Shown here in pieces: positions 3,081-23,791 of a stretch of DNA of 37,673 nucleotides (its first letter is position 1; every line of letters starts with the position of its first letter). Location: assembly GCA_021797085.1 (NCBI GenBank), contig JAKAAG010000007.1:5161-42833 (forward strand), written 5' to 3'. The notes beneath the pieces are model-generated. The model ran no database searches, was not told the DNA's origin, and saw only the letters and a program-made list of their open reading frames with translations. The stretch is from Nanobdellota archaeon. Lineage in GTDB: Archaea > Nanobdellota > Nanobdellia > Parvarchaeales > Parvarchaeaceae. The position numbers and the translations under genes are program-made.

Positions 3081-4235
3081 CTACATCTTTTTTAATTTTT
3101 CAATCTCTTTTTTCACTTTTTGGTCGTTTTCTATCTGAATACAAGTATCAACTGCTGCGATTATCGTTTTTCTTAGCTGGCCCAATGAATCATTACTACC
3201 AGCCAATTCTCTAAACCTATCTGAATGGCCTGCCACGCTTTTCGGAGCTATCTTAAAGTCAATATGTCCAGTGGGAACGGCTTTGCTGACGTTTGCTTCA
3301 TCTGTTGCTCCTATCTGTTGATCCCTTTTTTCGTAGAGCTTTGCTGCATTTACTCCTTGTTTTTTCAAGTTATTATACAATATTTTGTCTATTACTAGGG
3401 CATTTTTATACTCCTTATATATCGGAGTTATCTGCTTGATAGTAACCTTAGTTTTATAAGTTTTTCCTATTCCTATTGCTATCTTTTTTATTCTATTATA
3501 AGTGTGTATCAAGTAACTGGTTTTAGTACTTCTTAAGTCTATTTCAAGTATGCTTTTATCGGGTATGATATTAGAAGCCTTTCCTCCTTCTTTTATATAC
3601 ATTCCAACTAATACATGCATATATTTGTTGAAAGATGCAGTAGCGTTTCTTATGCTCAAGTAAGTTGCAATAAGCGCATCAAGTGCATTTATCCCCTTCT
3701 CTGCTTCTTCCAGATGGCTGGCTTTGCCTTCAAAAATAATTTCAGTAGTTATATCTGCAGGCGACTGGCAACCAACACTCCACTGCGAATCTGGATGCAC
3801 TCCTATAACAAAATCTATATCTTTAAACGCTCCTGCTTTAACAAGCATGTCTTTGCTTCCAGCATATTCTCCAATGCCTTCTTCGGACGGAGTGCCGATT
3901 ACGACTATTTTTCCTTTGTAACCTTTTTCTTTTAGTTTTATGGCAGTTCCAACTGACCAAGCGGCTATAAGATTATGTCCGCAAGAATGCCCATTGGGCA
4001 AGGCATCTTCCTCACACAATAAGCCAACAACCGGCCTTCCGCTGCCGTATTCCGCTCTAAAGGCTGTTTTCATTCCTTTGTATGGCTTCTTTATTTTAAA
4101 GCCATTTTTCTTTAGAAAGTCAGAAAGCAAAGCGGATGTTTTGAATTCCTTGCTGCCTATCTCTGCGAGATTGAATACCTCTTTCGAAATTTTATATATG
4201 TCGTTAAATCGGCCATAGTCATTGCTTATGTTCAT
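3081..4235 (-). CDS. M20 family (M20D-type) amidohydrolase/peptidase
   Basis: A 384-residue cytoplasmic enzyme of the amidohydrolase M20D group (p-aminobenzoyl-glutamate hydrolase, ACY1L2/PM20D2-like dipeptidases), which cleave amide or peptide bonds with a metal centre. Visible motifs are DALPNGHSCGHN (residues 77-88, His/Cys metal site), GTPSEEG (114-120, catalytic Glu and metal Glu), GVHPDSQW (145-152), the dimerisation-domain motif KASHLEEAEKGINALDA (171-187) and a final His in VAGHSDRF near 335. Length fits the family. It is transcribed divergently from the gene at 4305, with only 69 bp between the start codons. The substrate cannot be deduced; a dipeptidase or amino-acyl amide recycling role is most likely. 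Confidence 0.85.
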   Translation of the reverse strand: MNISNDYGRFNDIYKISKEVFNLAEIGSKEFKTSALLSDFLKKNGFKIKKPYKGMKTAFRAEYGSGRPVVGLLCEEDALPNGHSCGHNLIAAWSVGTAIKLKEKGYKGKIVVIGTPSEEGIGEYAGSKDMLVKAGAFKDIDFVIGVHPDSQWSVGCQSPADITTEIIFEGKASHLEEAEKGINALDALIATYLSIRNATASFNKYMHVLVGMYIKEGGKASNIIPDKSILEIDLRSTKTSYLIHTYNRIKKIAIGIGKTYKTKVTIKQITPIYKEYKNALVIDKILYNNLKKQGVNAAKLYEKRDQQIGATDEANVSKAVPTGHIDFKIAPKSVAGHSDRFRELAGSNDSLGQLRKTIIAAVDTCIQIENDQKVKKEIEKLKKM

Positions 4236-18274: not shown

Positions 18275-18394
18275 AGAATTATTATATACGATATAAACAT
18301 CCTTAGTTTAAATATTTTTGAAATATCAACCTGCCATAAATAATCGTATTAGCGTTTAGAGAAATTATTTATTATGACATTAAACTATACTGTA

Positions 18395-18874
18395 ATGGTA
18401 AGACCAAGTTGGGATGAATATTTTACCGAGATAACAAAAAAAGTAGCAGAAAGATCAACCTGCGATAGAGGTCATGCGGCCTGCGTTATTGTCAAGGAAA
18501 ACAGAATTCTTGCTACTGGCTATGCTGGTTCACCGAAGGGAATGCCGCATTGTGATGACGTTGGCCACATGTTGAGGAAGCAGTATGATAATGAAACGGG
18601 AGAGATAACTACGCACTGTGTAAGAACAGTACATGCAGAGCAGAATGCAATAACACAAGCTGCAAAATTCGGTGTTTCTCTTGATGGTTCAACAGCTTAC
18701 GTAACAATGGAACCTTGCTTCACATGTGCAAAAATGCTTGTTCAAGTAGGCGTTAAAAGAGTCGTTGCATTTAAAAAATACCACGACGATAAAGATACTG
18801 TTGAGCTTTTCAAGAAGTCCGGCATACCTTTAGAAGTAAAGGAAGACAAAGAAGAAGAGTACTCAAATAAATAG
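18395..18874 (+). CDS. dCMP deaminase family protein
   Basis: 159 residues from MVRPSWDEYF, which matches the usual N-terminus of deoxycytidylate deaminases; an in-frame ATG at 18374 would add seven residues and cannot be excluded. Zinc site: HAEQNAI (His80, Glu82 as catalytic acid/base) and PCFTCAKM (Cys108, Cys111). A further zinc-type cluster, CDRGH (23-27) with HCDD (52-55) and HC (74-75), is as in T4/eukaryotic dCMP deaminases. It makes dUMP for thymidylate synthesis. It ends 3 bp from the convergent NadM-DUF488 gene. Confidence 0.9.
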   Translation: MVRPSWDEYFTEITKKVAERSTCDRGHAACVIVKENRILATGYAGSPKGMPHCDDVGHMLRKQYDNETGEITTHCVRTVHAEQNAITQAAKFGVSLDGSTAYVTMEPCFTCAKMLVQVGVKRVVAFKKYHDDKDTVELFKKSGIPLEVKEDKEEEYSNK

Positions 18875-18877
18875 AAT

Positions 18878-19894
18878 TTATTTATAAACAAGGCTGCCGC
18901 GATATCTTTCAGCATGCTTGTTTATTTTATGCTCCAACGTTTCATTGTGGTTTATTATATGTGTCACTGAAAAGTGCTTTGCAGTAAGTAAGTCTGCTAT
19001 AAGAGAACGATGACAATTCCATGGCAATACCTCTGCGCACATTACTGCAGTTCTTTTTTTAACGGATATTTTAACTAGCTTAGTTATTCCTACTTTAAAC
19101 TCCTTTTTCTGCATGTAATCGGCAAAACCCCTGAAAGATTCGTTTTCCCAGAAGGTATTAATTGAATCTTTACCAGGTTTTCTTAGGCCCCCCAACTCTT
19201 TAAAGTGTTTATATTCAATTCCATTTTCAGCTAAAACGGTCTTTAAACTACCGGAGTTAAACTGCGGGTTATGCCTAGACTTCGGTATTGTTCTTATGTC
19301 TACAACCTCCTTAATCCCATATTCTTTCATCAACAACACAAAATCTTTTATGTCTCTAGTAGAATGTCCTACAGTGAATACTCTTTTGCTGCCAGTTATG
19401 TCAATGTTTCTTATTCTTTCTATTCCGTCTGTTTTATGTATAACTTTTAAAGTTCCTTCTGGTAGTAAATGCTCTATTTTTTCGTTTAATAAAATCATTT
19501 TTCTTATTTTTGTTCCAGATAATTTATCACGCTTAAACTCCCCTATTTTTTCTACCTTACTTTTGTTATCTAAAAGTATTTTTTTCACAAGTTTATTTCC
19601 AGTGTAGCACACATCAAAGTAACCGACGGTATTTGCAAGCTCTTTAAACCACTTGCTGTATGACATTTTATCGTCTAATCCAAATATTTTGAAATTTTGA
19701 ATATTCTCGTCTTTAAGCGAGCGTTCAATCATCTCTTTTCTTTCTTCAAACGTGAATGGATTTATTTCTGTGAACGAAAACTGTTTGCTCCCTATAACAA
19801 TCTTTATTTCGTTTCTATTTTTACAGATTGAAAGTATTGTGTTAAGGTGGCCTTTGTGAAAGGGTTGAAACCTCCCTATAAACAATATCTCCAT
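18878..19894 (-). CDS. Fusion: archaeal NadM-type NMN adenylyltransferase + DUF488
   Basis: 338 residues in two parts. Residues 1 to about 165 are a nucleotidylyltransferase of the archaeal NMNAT type: GRFQPFHKGH (7-16, HxGH-like ATP site), GSKQFSFTEINPFTFEER (35-52) and SGTKIR (126-131). These make NAD from NMN and ATP. Residues about 170-338 are a DUF488 domain: FTVGHSTRDIKDF, VDIRTIPKSRHNPQFN (198-213), ELGGLRKPG, and the signature CAEVLPWNCHRSLIADLL (286-303). Both halves look complete. The junction is in one open frame with no gap, so the fusion is read directly. DUF488 function is not settled, so a role in NAD or nucleotide metabolism for the second half is inference from the fusion. 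Confidence 0.88.
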   Translation of the reverse strand: MEILFIGRFQPFHKGHLNTILSICKNRNEIKIVIGSKQFSFTEINPFTFEERKEMIERSLKDENIQNFKIFGLDDKMSYSKWFKELANTVGYFDVCYTGNKLVKKILLDNKSKVEKIGEFKRDKLSGTKIRKMILLNEKIEHLLPEGTLKVIHKTDGIERIRNIDITGSKRVFTVGHSTRDIKDFVLLMKEYGIKEVVDIRTIPKSRHNPQFNSGSLKTVLAENGIEYKHFKELGGLRKPGKDSINTFWENESFRGFADYMQKKEFKVGITKLVKISVKKRTAVMCAEVLPWNCHRSLIADLLTAKHFSVTHIINHNETLEHKINKHAERYRGSLVYK

Positions 19895-19940: not shown

Positions 19941-21275
19941 TTATAATTTATAATCCAAATCTTGTTTGAATTTTTCAAGGTAAAACTGCTTTTCATTGTA
20001 ATCCGCAAGGTAAAGGCAGTTGTCCATTGCTTCTTTCAAGCAAGAGGTTGCGCCCGGAGACGGCGTTACTGAGAATAGGGCGCCGTCACCTTCTATTGCA
20101 GTTCCGCCCAATGCAAGCTGCTTTTTGTTTGTGTCTATTATCTGTGGTCTGATGCCTCCGACATTCTCGGCAAGCTTAAGATCATCTGGTTTAAGTGATG
20201 GCACTATTTTGTTTACTTCATTTTTAGTAAAGGATATCTTACCAATAAATGGTATGGAGTAAATCAAGTTTTCCTTTACAATTTTTGATATAGTCTTATC
20301 AAACAGTATATTTTCTAGGCTCTTTGCAGTATCTTCATTGAAGTTAAGTGAGCGGAAGTAATCTGGCATAGAATAAATATTTCCTTTTTCAAGTTCAGGG
20401 TATATGTTAACAGTTGGCCCGAACCTAGTTATATTTGGATCTGTAATGTCGGGATCGCCATGCACAGCTGCAAAGGGTATCCCCTCTCTTTCAACCCTAT
20501 AAACCTTTCCGTTTAGTACTTTTTTTGAGTAATAGAACTTGCCGCCAACAGATAATATACCTAAGTTCTTTCCGTATCCTAATTTTTTTGCGAAGAAAAG
20601 GCTGTATGCTCCAGCGGTTACTAACACAGAATCTGAAAGAAATTCATTTTTATTGGTTTTTACTGTATAACCTTGGGAAGTCTTCTTTATCTCTTTTACT
20701 TCTTCGTTGAATTTTGCTTTAAATGATTCTTTTTGCAGGGCTATCTCCATAAAAGATTTTGACAGGTTATGGTAATCAACCATGTATCCGCTATCCGTGA
20801 AAAGAGCAAGTAAATTTTGATTTTCTTCTCTTCCTTTTACTACATTTGGCTCAACCTTTGCTATGTCTTCTTTTTTATCTAGTTTTTTAACATATGGAAA
20901 TATCTCCTTGAATTCCGAATCATACCTTTTTTCGAGTTTATCTATTTCCTCGTCTCCAACTGCAAGCGTCATTTTCTGGCATTTCTGTATGACATTCTTT
21001 CTTTCATCTTCATCTAATTCCTTATTTGCATAACTTACGACTAATTTTGCATTTTCCTTTGTTTCCTTAGTTTTTTCTATTGAATAGTTTGTTTCTATCT
21101 CCCCAGAATGAAGAGTCTGACTATTGTTGTTGCTGTTTGAGTTAAGCAATGCAACGTCCTTTTCCTTCTCTATTATAAGCACGTCTTTGAATTCAGAATA
21201 TCTGCTTAGAGCATACATGCTTGCGGTTCCAACGACTCCTGCTCCAATTATTATGATTTCATATTTTTTTGCCAT
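19941..21275 (-). CDS. mqo: FAD-dependent malate:quinone oxidoreductase (Helicobacter-type, class 2)
   Basis: 444 residues. The N-terminal FAD site is IIIGAGVVGTASMYAL (8-23), then NNNSQTLHSGEIETNYS (about 49-65), which matches the NSQTxHxGxIETNYT segment I recall for the Helicobacter enzyme. Further matches are PFAAVHGDPDI, TRFGPTVNIYP, KIVPSLKPDDL, GGIRPQIID and the C-terminal TPSPGATSCL. The enzyme oxidises malate to oxaloacetate and passes electrons to membrane quinone. No transmembrane helix is seen, as expected for a peripheral membrane flavoprotein. L-2-hydroxyglutarate oxidase-like activity is the main alternative. It has 46 bp to the NadM-DUF488 gene and its own upstream AT-rich promoter region. 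Confidence 0.85.
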   Translation of the reverse strand: MAKKYEIIIIGAGVVGTASMYALSRYSEFKDVLIIEKEKDVALLNSNSNNNSQTLHSGEIETNYSIEKTKETKENAKLVVSYANKELDEDERKNVIQKCQKMTLAVGDEEIDKLEKRYDSEFKEIFPYVKKLDKKEDIAKVEPNVVKGREENQNLLALFTDSGYMVDYHNLSKSFMEIALQKESFKAKFNEEVKEIKKTSQGYTVKTNKNEFLSDSVLVTAGAYSLFFAKKLGYGKNLGILSVGGKFYYSKKVLNGKVYRVEREGIPFAAVHGDPDITDPNITRFGPTVNIYPELEKGNIYSMPDYFRSLNFNEDTAKSLENILFDKTISKIVKENLIYSIPFIGKISFTKNEVNKIVPSLKPDDLKLAENVGGIRPQIIDTNKKQLALGGTAIEGDGALFSVTPSPGATSCLKEAMDNCLYLADYNEKQFYLEKFKQDLDYKL

Positions 21276-22681: not shown

Positions 22682-23134
22682 ATGGTTTATAAGAAAAATA
22701 GCCTAGAAAACAGATTACTGCTTAATGCTATAGATAATGTTGCTCCTAATAAGAAGAGGTTGCTTAATGAGGTATTCCAGCTTAATAGTGACTGCAAAGA
22801 AAATCACGATCCATTCTTTATAGATAATCTGGAAAAATTTGTTTATAATCTGAAAGGCAGTATCAGCTCAGAAACAAGTTATAAAATAGAGGAAACTGTG
22901 GAAAACCTCGAATTTATCTATAATTTAAAGGAATTAAAGAAGGACTATAAATTTGGAAATCTTCCTGAGAAAGGAGAAGAAGAAAATATAGCAGAGCTGT
23001 ATAAACTAATTGCAGACAATTGCGAAATACTAAACTATAAACAACTTAGTGCCGCTGCGAGTTTAGTGCATTATCTAAGCACTTCTGATGAATGGGAAAA
23101 AGTCAATTATCTTCACTTGCTAAATTATCATTAA
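22682..23134 (+). CDS. Unrecognised small helical protein
   Basis: 150 residues, soluble, charged and strongly helix-prone, with Leu/Ile/Tyr spacing suggesting a helical bundle. Two Cys (residues about 38 and 104) and no motif I can name. Start fixed by TATA spacing, so it is leaderless. The next gene has its own TATA. Its length class and composition resemble the protein at 23222, but I see no clear sequence relation. Confidence 0.55.
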   Translation: MVYKKNSLENRLLLNAIDNVAPNKKRLLNEVFQLNSDCKENHDPFFIDNLEKFVYNLKGSISSETSYKIEETVENLEFIYNLKELKKDYKFGNLPEKGEEENIAELYKLIADNCEILNYKQLSAAASLVHYLSTSDEWEKVNYLHLLNYH

Positions 23135-23221: not shown

Positions 23222-23791
23222 ATGGCCACGGTAACCTACAATGAAAGATTTGATTCTTTGGTTTTTGAAATAACGGAAAAGGCAAAGAAGCTTGACAGCA
23301 TAACAAAAATACCCACTGAGCAGGTCTCTACAGATTCGCAATCCTTTGAAATGTACGGTATGCTTCCGGACTTTAAAAAGATTTACAGAAAAGATTATAT
23401 TAATTCGCTTTTCCTTCTTAGGAAGCTAGTGGGAAGGGATATTCTGGTATCTGATTTGAAGAAACTTTCGGAATCAAAGAAAAACGGAATAATGCAATCT
23501 TACTTGGAAGGGATACTGGAAGAAAATGGAAACTGCGCAGTAGAAAGTAAGTACAACCATTCAATAGATTACTTTTTGCCGGCAAGAAATGAGATTAATA
23601 AATTTTACATTTCAAATGAAAGAATAACCTTCTTTTCCGGCACAAGTTTTTATTTTGAGAAAAGCTCGGGCAAATTTTATGATTTTTCAAGGATAAATGA
23701 AAATGAAGCAAAGCTAGGGGAGCTGATACTAAAGAATATCTCCCAAGAAGAAAGGCAACTTAGGCTCAAAAATTACTATAATGAGGGATAG
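23222..23791 (+). CDS. Unrecognised soluble protein
   Basis: 189 residues from MATVTYNERF. The N-terminal two thirds are helical and charged; the later part (FYISNERITFFSGTSFYFEKSSGKFYDFSR region, about 135-165) is beta-like and aromatic. No signal peptide, no membrane segment, no known motif. The strong TATA suggests good expression. tRNA-Pro follows 41 bp downstream from a separate promoter. Confidence 0.55.
   Translation: MATVTYNERFDSLVFEITEKAKKLDSITKIPTEQVSTDSQSFEMYGMLPDFKKIYRKDYINSLFLLRKLVGRDILVSDLKKLSESKKNGIMQSYLEGILEENGNCAVESKYNHSIDYFLPARNEINKFYISNERITFFSGTSFYFEKSSGKFYDFSRINENEAKLGELILKNISQEERQLRLKNYYNEG

Follow-up and report, generated by a model that had tools for sequence, protein, structure and literature searches.

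The question raised by this locus is what a DUF488 domain does when it is joined, within one protein, to an archaeal enzyme of NAD synthesis. The window, meaning the whole stretch of 37,673 nucleotides that was analysed from a Nanobdellota archaeon of the family Parvarchaeaceae, carries at 18878-19894 an uninterrupted frame of 338 codons on the minus strand (338 aa, with the stop codon counted in the coordinates), and the plus strand of the same interval has many stops throughout. An earlier note, made from the DNA letters alone, had described one open frame in which a NadM-type enzyme is fused to DUF488, and had suggested NAD, NMN or a related nucleotide as the substrate of the DUF488 part. 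The single frame and the true fusion were both borne out, on the minus strand where that note gave no strand, and it was also right in looking to the DPANN archaea. We know of no experimentally shown substrate for DUF488, and as far as experiment goes the note was right to call its function unsettled; a computational prediction is reported from Burroughs and Aravind (2023), in their survey of the rhodanese-phosphatase superfamily with its clade of RapZ-C, DUF488 and DUF4326. The titles and abstracts of the literature mentioning DUF488 did not indicate a NadM-DUF488 fusion. A natural fusion to an enzyme of known reaction narrows the substrates to try, and both halves can be assayed in one protein. 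The long type of DUF488 is common on bacterial plasmids and is found among the candidate phage-defence families.

The frame divides into two domains. Residues 1-165 (19400-19894, minus strand) form the NadM half, assigned as an NMN/NaMN adenylyltransferase by the NF002243 model, by homology to MJ0541 and the MTH NMNAT, and by Foldseek. The DUF488 half, of the long type, comprises residues 171-338 (18881-19384, minus strand) and was delimited by PF04343, invariant positions and the structure model, its conservation running from about residue 171 through the C-terminal end. Both domains were recovered by Pfam, where CTP_transf_like scored 45.6 bits over residues 4-132 (cut-off 21) and DUF488 scored 99.4 bits over residues 182-303 (cut-off 22.2, E 2.7e-28), and the complete DUF488 signature that had been described was confirmed as CAEVLPWNCHRS at residues 286-297. 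A separate start for the DUF488 half at the junction was rejected, since no ATG, GTG or TTG lies in frame between residues 150 and 182. AlphaFold modelled the entire fusion with high confidence (pLDDT 91.7, pTM 0.89), as a packed, compact two-domain protein. We read the gene product as bifunctional, and hold this reading, together with the mechanism proposed below, with somewhat less than even confidence.

The joint between NadM and DUF488 is real and old. Full-length fusions were found in nine genomes of the genus, namely the source genome (G000), G001, G002, G005, G008, G010, G021, G023 and G026, and in two more (G009 and G014) the fusion is interrupted by a contig end. The full-length proteins are 337-344 residues long, those of the eight other genomes being 46-75% identical to the source protein, and six of the fusion genomes were identified with MAG records that bear separate names (TL1-2, FK_Sedi_A, FK_Sedi_B, LSA5, MAS3 and UBA573). 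The recurrence of full-length copies in these eight genomes rules out both chance and artefact. An assembly or binning artefact that joined two genes could appeal to the five sister genomes in which NadM and DUF488 are separate; its probability is negligible, as the junction and length are the same in nine genomes, six of them separately named MAG records, the neighbours match in most fusion genomes, and the proteins have diverged this far with both halves under purifying selection (pairwise NG86 omega 0.05-0.22 in both halves, from only those pairs with an estimable dS). The earlier note had held that separate, unlinked genes in close relatives together with an assembly join at this point would speak against it; the separate genes were encountered and the join was excluded.

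We then considered the distribution of the two domains among 28 genomes of the genus, many of which are incomplete, so that absences are soft. The fusion was present in 11 of the 28, including the two cut at contig ends. Separate and unlinked NadM and DUF488 genes were carried by five (G004, G012, G016, G020 and G024), a long DUF488 with no NadM found by three (G006, G015 and G017), a NadM with no long DUF488 found by two (G013 and G025), and neither was found in the remaining seven. NadE was not found in the three genomes with a long DUF488 and no NadM, nor in G020 and G024, where NadM is present; judged by eye, long DUF488 and NadE showed no clear association in their occurrence across the genus. 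A search for the domain pair, which the note had proposed for DPANN genomes, succeeded within the genus and returned no fusion in 378 class genomes and 371 phylum genomes, and a pattern scan of GTDB contigs and the viral contigs likewise contained none outside the genus. The fusion appears to be limited to one genus of Parvarchaeota, taxonomically narrow and of single origin. It was also noted that G009 has, besides its contig-edge fusion, a second and distant NadM-like gene (G009:C5, L127 about 3530-4025), which could be contamination (4%).

The N-terminal half bears out the NadM assignment of the earlier note. It passed the NCBIfam model NF002243, 'nicotinamide-nucleotide adenylyltransferase' (152.8 bits, cut-off 127), and missed the TIGR01527 equivalog (132.7 bits vs a cut-off of 181.2), so that by sequence it is a divergent member of archaeal NadM. 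Residues 3-165 matched the NMN adenylyltransferases of M. jannaschii and M. thermautotrophicus in the PDB (E 2e-30 and 1e-24), and Foldseek aligned the half to solved archaeal NMNATs with TMt 0.89-0.94, rmsd 1.4-2.0 and 32-40% identity. Both NadM motifs are in place, GRxQPFHxGH as GRFQPFHKGH at residues 7-16 (19847-19876, minus strand) and S(G/S)TxxR as SGTKIR, the second catalytic motif, at residues 126-131 (19502-19519, minus strand). In the alignment of the nine full-length fusions every position of the first motif save K14 is invariant, as are S126, T128, I130 and R131 of the second; R131 is probably the counterpart of R136 of the MTH NMNAT, which has been mutated in a solved structure.

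The fusion is the sole NadM-class gene found in the source genome, the other weak NadM match (C23:4817-4996) lying within a CoaD-like ORF. On contig C12 of this genome, genes for a protein of isochorismatase/nicotinamidase type, NAD synthase, nicotinate phosphoribosyltransferase (458 bits) and NAD kinase stand side by side as pncA-nadE-pncB-nadK, a cluster that lacks the NadM step alone. Clusters of pncA, pncB and nadE were also found in the fusion genomes G021 and G023. With the fusion, the gene content completes the route from nicotinamide through nicotinate, NaMN, NaAD and NAD to NADP, the activities being predicted ones. Sequence, fold and pathway context agree in supporting the NadM half as the cell's NMN/NaMN adenylyltransferase, again as a predicted activity. 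In other Nanoarchaeia, NadM was found to carry a C-terminal Nudix domain in several genomes (Pfam-confirmed in L089, L092 and L107); the fusion shows that this place behind NadM can also be taken by a domain of another family. It was also noted that a standalone Nudix gene of the source genome (G000:C4, L237:2840-3247) scores on models of the Nudix half of NadM-Nudix and of the ADPR-responsive regulator NtrR.

The DUF488 half retains all 21 positions that are invariant across the aligned archaeal, bacterial and viral long DUF488 proteins. Among the invariant residues are C286, E288, C294, H295 and R296 of the proposed active-site loop, CAEVLPWNCHR (19007-19039, minus strand; proposed from conservation and the model), and the D199-x-R201 motif (19292-19300, minus strand). 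In the model of this half (pLDDT 92.3), the strand at 114-118 ends at C118 and the helix at 128-137 begins at R128 in the numbering of the half, which places C286 at the end of a beta strand and H295-R296 at the start of the next helix in fusion numbering. The top-ranking Foldseek matches with probabilities of 0.9 and above were Cys-phosphatases (PRL, DUF442 and plant phosphatases, up to 0.99), archaeal PTPs appearing at 0.82-0.89; E-values were about 0.01-0.05 and TM scores 0.37-0.47. The best matches, mostly Cys-phosphatases, had probabilities of 0.97-0.99 with E 0.01-0.03 and TM 0.37-0.45. The loop is a CX9R (C286-x9-R296) and not the CX5R of PTPs, the score on DUF488-N3a (PF22751) was below the gathering score (21.5 bits vs 27), and by sequence no solved relatives of DUF488 were found. 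We think, from the model, that the layout is of the phosphatase/rhodanese type and would suit a cysteine-dependent enzyme for a ribose-phosphate. As separate observations, the half also scores on the PADLOC candidates PDC-M19A and PDC-M45B, and other Nanoarchaeia have DUF488 proteins extended at the N-terminus by about 140-180 residues (L144:4503-6115, L145:371-1961, L146:389-2121 and L147:4007-5625). Each of these N-extended genes is directly followed on the same strand by a gene for 255-261 aa with no Pfam match (three scanned), an arrangement that resembles an undescribed two-gene unit.

Trees of the two halves were compared to characterize the history of the fusion. In the genus NadM tree a branch supported at 98/98 has every fusion NadM on the same side, and in the wider class tree ten fusion NadMs form a 100/99 clade, G023 being unplaced. 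The DUF488 tree rejected the fusions alone as a clade (p 0.003) and did not reject a clade of the fusions with one standalone DUF488 (p 0.228). That gene (L121:7136-7735) belongs to G031, from a different genus of the same family; it nests with the fusion DUF488 halves, is positioned behind sufBD genes, and has an N-terminal tail (...ANIKHTNTTDRRIIFTVGHS) that, by reading, resembles the fusion linker (...KNIHKTNEKRIFTIGHS). It seems to descend from a fusion whose NadM half has been lost. Two independent fusions, with G023 apart, were considered and set aside in favor of one origin, given the 98/98 NadM branch and the DUF488 clade at p 0.228. The fusion probably arose once, and the simplest history is one fusion, after which the NadM half was lost a single time, either in G031 or in its donor. 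Nucleotide identity was found to jump near the domain boundary, from 58-78% to 82-93% between G000 and G002 and from 69-85% to 85-94% between G008 and G005, so that the DUF488 half has probably recombined on its own, apart from the NadM half. Within 18878-19894 the jump near the boundary was seen against both G002 and G001.

The surroundings of the fusion gene were also examined. A gene for a FAD-dependent oxidoreductase of the DAO/Mqo type (19941-21275, minus strand) lies 46 bp upstream on the same strand, so co-transcription of the two is possible, and this adjacency is retained in G001, G002, G005, G008, G010, G014 and G021. A dCMP-deaminase family gene (18374-18874, plus strand) converges on the fusion, 3 bp off its stop, and adjoins it in every fusion genome but G023. 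Genes for RadA and a DEDD exonuclease were identified close by with Pfam, the locus order being radA, peroxiredoxin, dCMP deaminase, fusion, FAD oxidoreductase and exonuclease. This synteny is whole or partial in most fusion genomes, with the copy of G023 located elsewhere. It was noted in passing that proteins of 150 and 189 aa with no Pfam match (22682-23134 and 23222-23791) lie near the fusion locus in several genus genomes, and that only in G026 does a P-type ATPase gene stand between the FAD oxidoreductase and the fusion gene (L134:4704-6752).

Other DUF488 genes keep different company. In the genus, a long DUF488 gene that stands alone is flanked by tRNA synthetase genes and others, but not by genes of repair. 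Long DUF488 was matched in 124 bacterial plasmid records, and a DNA glycosylase adjoined or lay near the gene in 4 (L256, L260, L252 and L250) of the 12 annotated records that make up the neighborhood sample, which has no background rate: of the UDG family in Agrobacterium, Paraburkholderia and Rhodococcus and of the AlkA type in Acidithiobacillus. In Variovorax, the gene is close to transketolase and directly before 6-phosphogluconate dehydrogenase. The genes around bacterial DUF488 are for DNA glycosylases or belong to carbohydrate metabolism and stress, rather than to NAD metabolism. DUF2945 was additionally seen near long DUF488 in three plasmid records. The source genome has a second, short DUF488 gene of the inactive DUF488-N3i subclade (G000:C3, L128:5869-6755), and in the genus this short gene has a uracil-DNA-glycosylase gene next to it and a dCTP-deaminase-like gene not far away, G026 (L133) having a similar layout by ORF size.

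Taken with the fold, the fusion suggests the following mechanism. The NadM half would join AMP from ATP to the nicotinate mononucleotide made by PncB, and NadE would then amidate the product to NAD. The DUF488 half would be a phosphate-handling enzyme of the protein-tyrosine-phosphatase/rhodanese fold, with Cys286 as the likely nucleophile and His295-Arg296 predicted by the model to hold the phosphate. Its substrate would most likely be a small ribose-phosphate from the turnover of pyridine nucleotides, for which NMN, NaMN, ribose-5-phosphate or an ADP-ribose phosphate are candidates, and it would fill the clean-up or recycling place that the Nudix ADP-ribose pyrophosphatase domain takes in NadM-Nudix. 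By analogy, its reaction would be the removal or transfer of a phosphate carried by a ribose-phosphate of the pyridine-nucleotide cycle, a possibility we put a little short of even; the substrate itself is guessed from the partner in the fusion and from precedents in the literature. The full proposal, in which DUF488 is a cysteine-dependent, metal-independent phosphatase or phosphotransferase on a pyridine-nucleotide-derived ribose-phosphate and replaces Nudix behind NadM, is rather unlikely as a whole. One more specific candidate, ADP-ribose-1''-phosphate from tRNA 2'-phosphotransfer, was dropped: KptA/Tpt1 was found in none of the 28 genus genomes, and the only two that have a macro domain lack the fusion, which leaves such a role without a visible substrate source.

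Several findings bear against a role in the NAD cycle. The source genome already has ADP-ribose-type Nudix genes, the standalone long DUF488 persists where neither NadM nor NadE was found, G031 keeps the DUF488 half only, and the one surviving fusion may be accidental. The separate recombination of the DUF488 half, the bacterial neighbors, the Foldseek E-values and TM scores and the CX9R loop count against it as well. A single fusion event is weak evidence for a pathway common to both halves. The joint may instead be accidental and harmless, with NadM making NaAD and NAD while DUF488 keeps an unrelated standalone job on the same chain, most likely on the sugar-phosphates of base excision repair (deoxyribose-phosphate, damaged DNA ends) or in nucleotide stress. 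This pairing of a DNA-repair role with an accidental fusion is a serious contender, almost as likely as the NAD-cycle reading. It draws on the single event, on the five sister genomes with unlinked domains, on the three genomes with DUF488 and no NadM found together with the DUF488-only relative, on the glycosylases of the four plasmid records and the uracil-DNA-glycosylase beside the short DUF488-N3i gene, and on the dCMP deaminase, RadA and exonuclease genes around the fusion itself. Set against it, 11 species have retained the fusion without damage to either catalytic site, the glycosylase neighbors were seen in that small plasmid sample, and the standalone genes of the genus lie beside tRNA synthetases. 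A sugar-phosphate substrate would reconcile the NAD and the DNA-glycosylase settings.

It is also conceivable, at a distinctly low probability, that the DUF488 half is a sensor in the manner of RapZ-C, which would bind a ribose-phosphate or nucleotide and tune the NMN adenylyltransferase activity. The RapZ-C pocket (H190, T248, G249, H252 and R253, with C247 near) offers a Cys-His-Arg site that binds sulfate or malonate and probably GlcN6P (PMC5737377, PMC9841335), E. coli RapZ-C shares D-[IV]-R (as DVR) and C...HRS with DUF488, and the packed two-domain model counts in its favor. In the hhalign alignment of DUF488 with RapZ-C, Cys pairs with Cys and HRS with HRS; the score of 18.1 is nonetheless below the shuffled maximum of 18.5, so that the profile comparison gave no significant support for RapZ-C homology, and the strict conservation of C286 and C294 suggests chemistry. 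Returning to the NAD-cycle reading, the activity on NAD, NMN or a related nucleotide that the earlier note suggested for DUF488 is plausible; the idea gains from the phosphatase-like fold and from the NadM-Nudix proteins of other Nanoarchaeia, and loses by the single fusion event, the separate genes, the genomes with DUF488 and no NadM, the G031 relative and the bacterial glycosylase neighbors. The fusion is a testable, weak hint that DUF488 handles ribose-phosphates of NAD metabolism. If the full proposal above is true, the standalone long DUF488 proteins across bacteria would share the chemistry, and the family would have its first testable substrate class.

Known systems place the fusion as follows. 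The solved archaeal NadM enzymes (MJ0541, PDB 1f9a; MTH NMNAT, PDB 1ej2) have the same fold and catalytic motifs as its N-terminal half and are single-domain proteins of about 170-180 aa, whereas the fusion adds a C-terminal DUF488. The long standalone DUF488 proteins (PF04343) have the 21 invariant residues in common with it, plasmid-borne bacterial homologues reaching 48% identity; most of those examined have a single domain, and DNA glycosylase genes are close to several of them, while the DUF488 of the fusion is attached to NadM. With the rhodanese-phosphatase superfamily and its clade of RapZ-C, DUF488 and DUF4326 it has in common the strand-end Cys, the helix-start Arg, D-x-R and HRS, and Foldseek suggests a phosphatase-like fold; its CX9R loop sets it apart, and the profile comparison did not demonstrate that it belongs to the clade. 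The related DUF4326, a rhodanese-phosphatase clade, has been predicted by the group of Burroughs and Aravind to process ribose-linked phosphates of ADP-ribose (PMC9503650). ADP-ribose pyrophosphatases of the Nudix and COG1058 families tend to be fused with enzymes of NAD recycling, including NadM, and COG1058, joined to PncC and once without a known function, turned out to be an ADP-ribose pyrophosphatase whose role came to light via the fusion (PMC3680494). COG1058-PncC is like NadM-DUF488 in having had an unknown domain on an NAD-recycling enzyme, there acting on ADP-ribose, but involves another enzyme and domain family and is widespread in bacteria, whereas NadM-DUF488 is confined to one genus. 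The bifunctional NadM-Nudix proteins (PDB 2qjo and 2qjt) have the same order as the fusion, with NadM in front and, behind it, a domain whose presumed substrate is a ribose-phosphate compound; their second domain is Nudix, whereas the DUF488 of the fusion is unrelated to it, with neither a Nudix box nor a Nudix match in Pfam.
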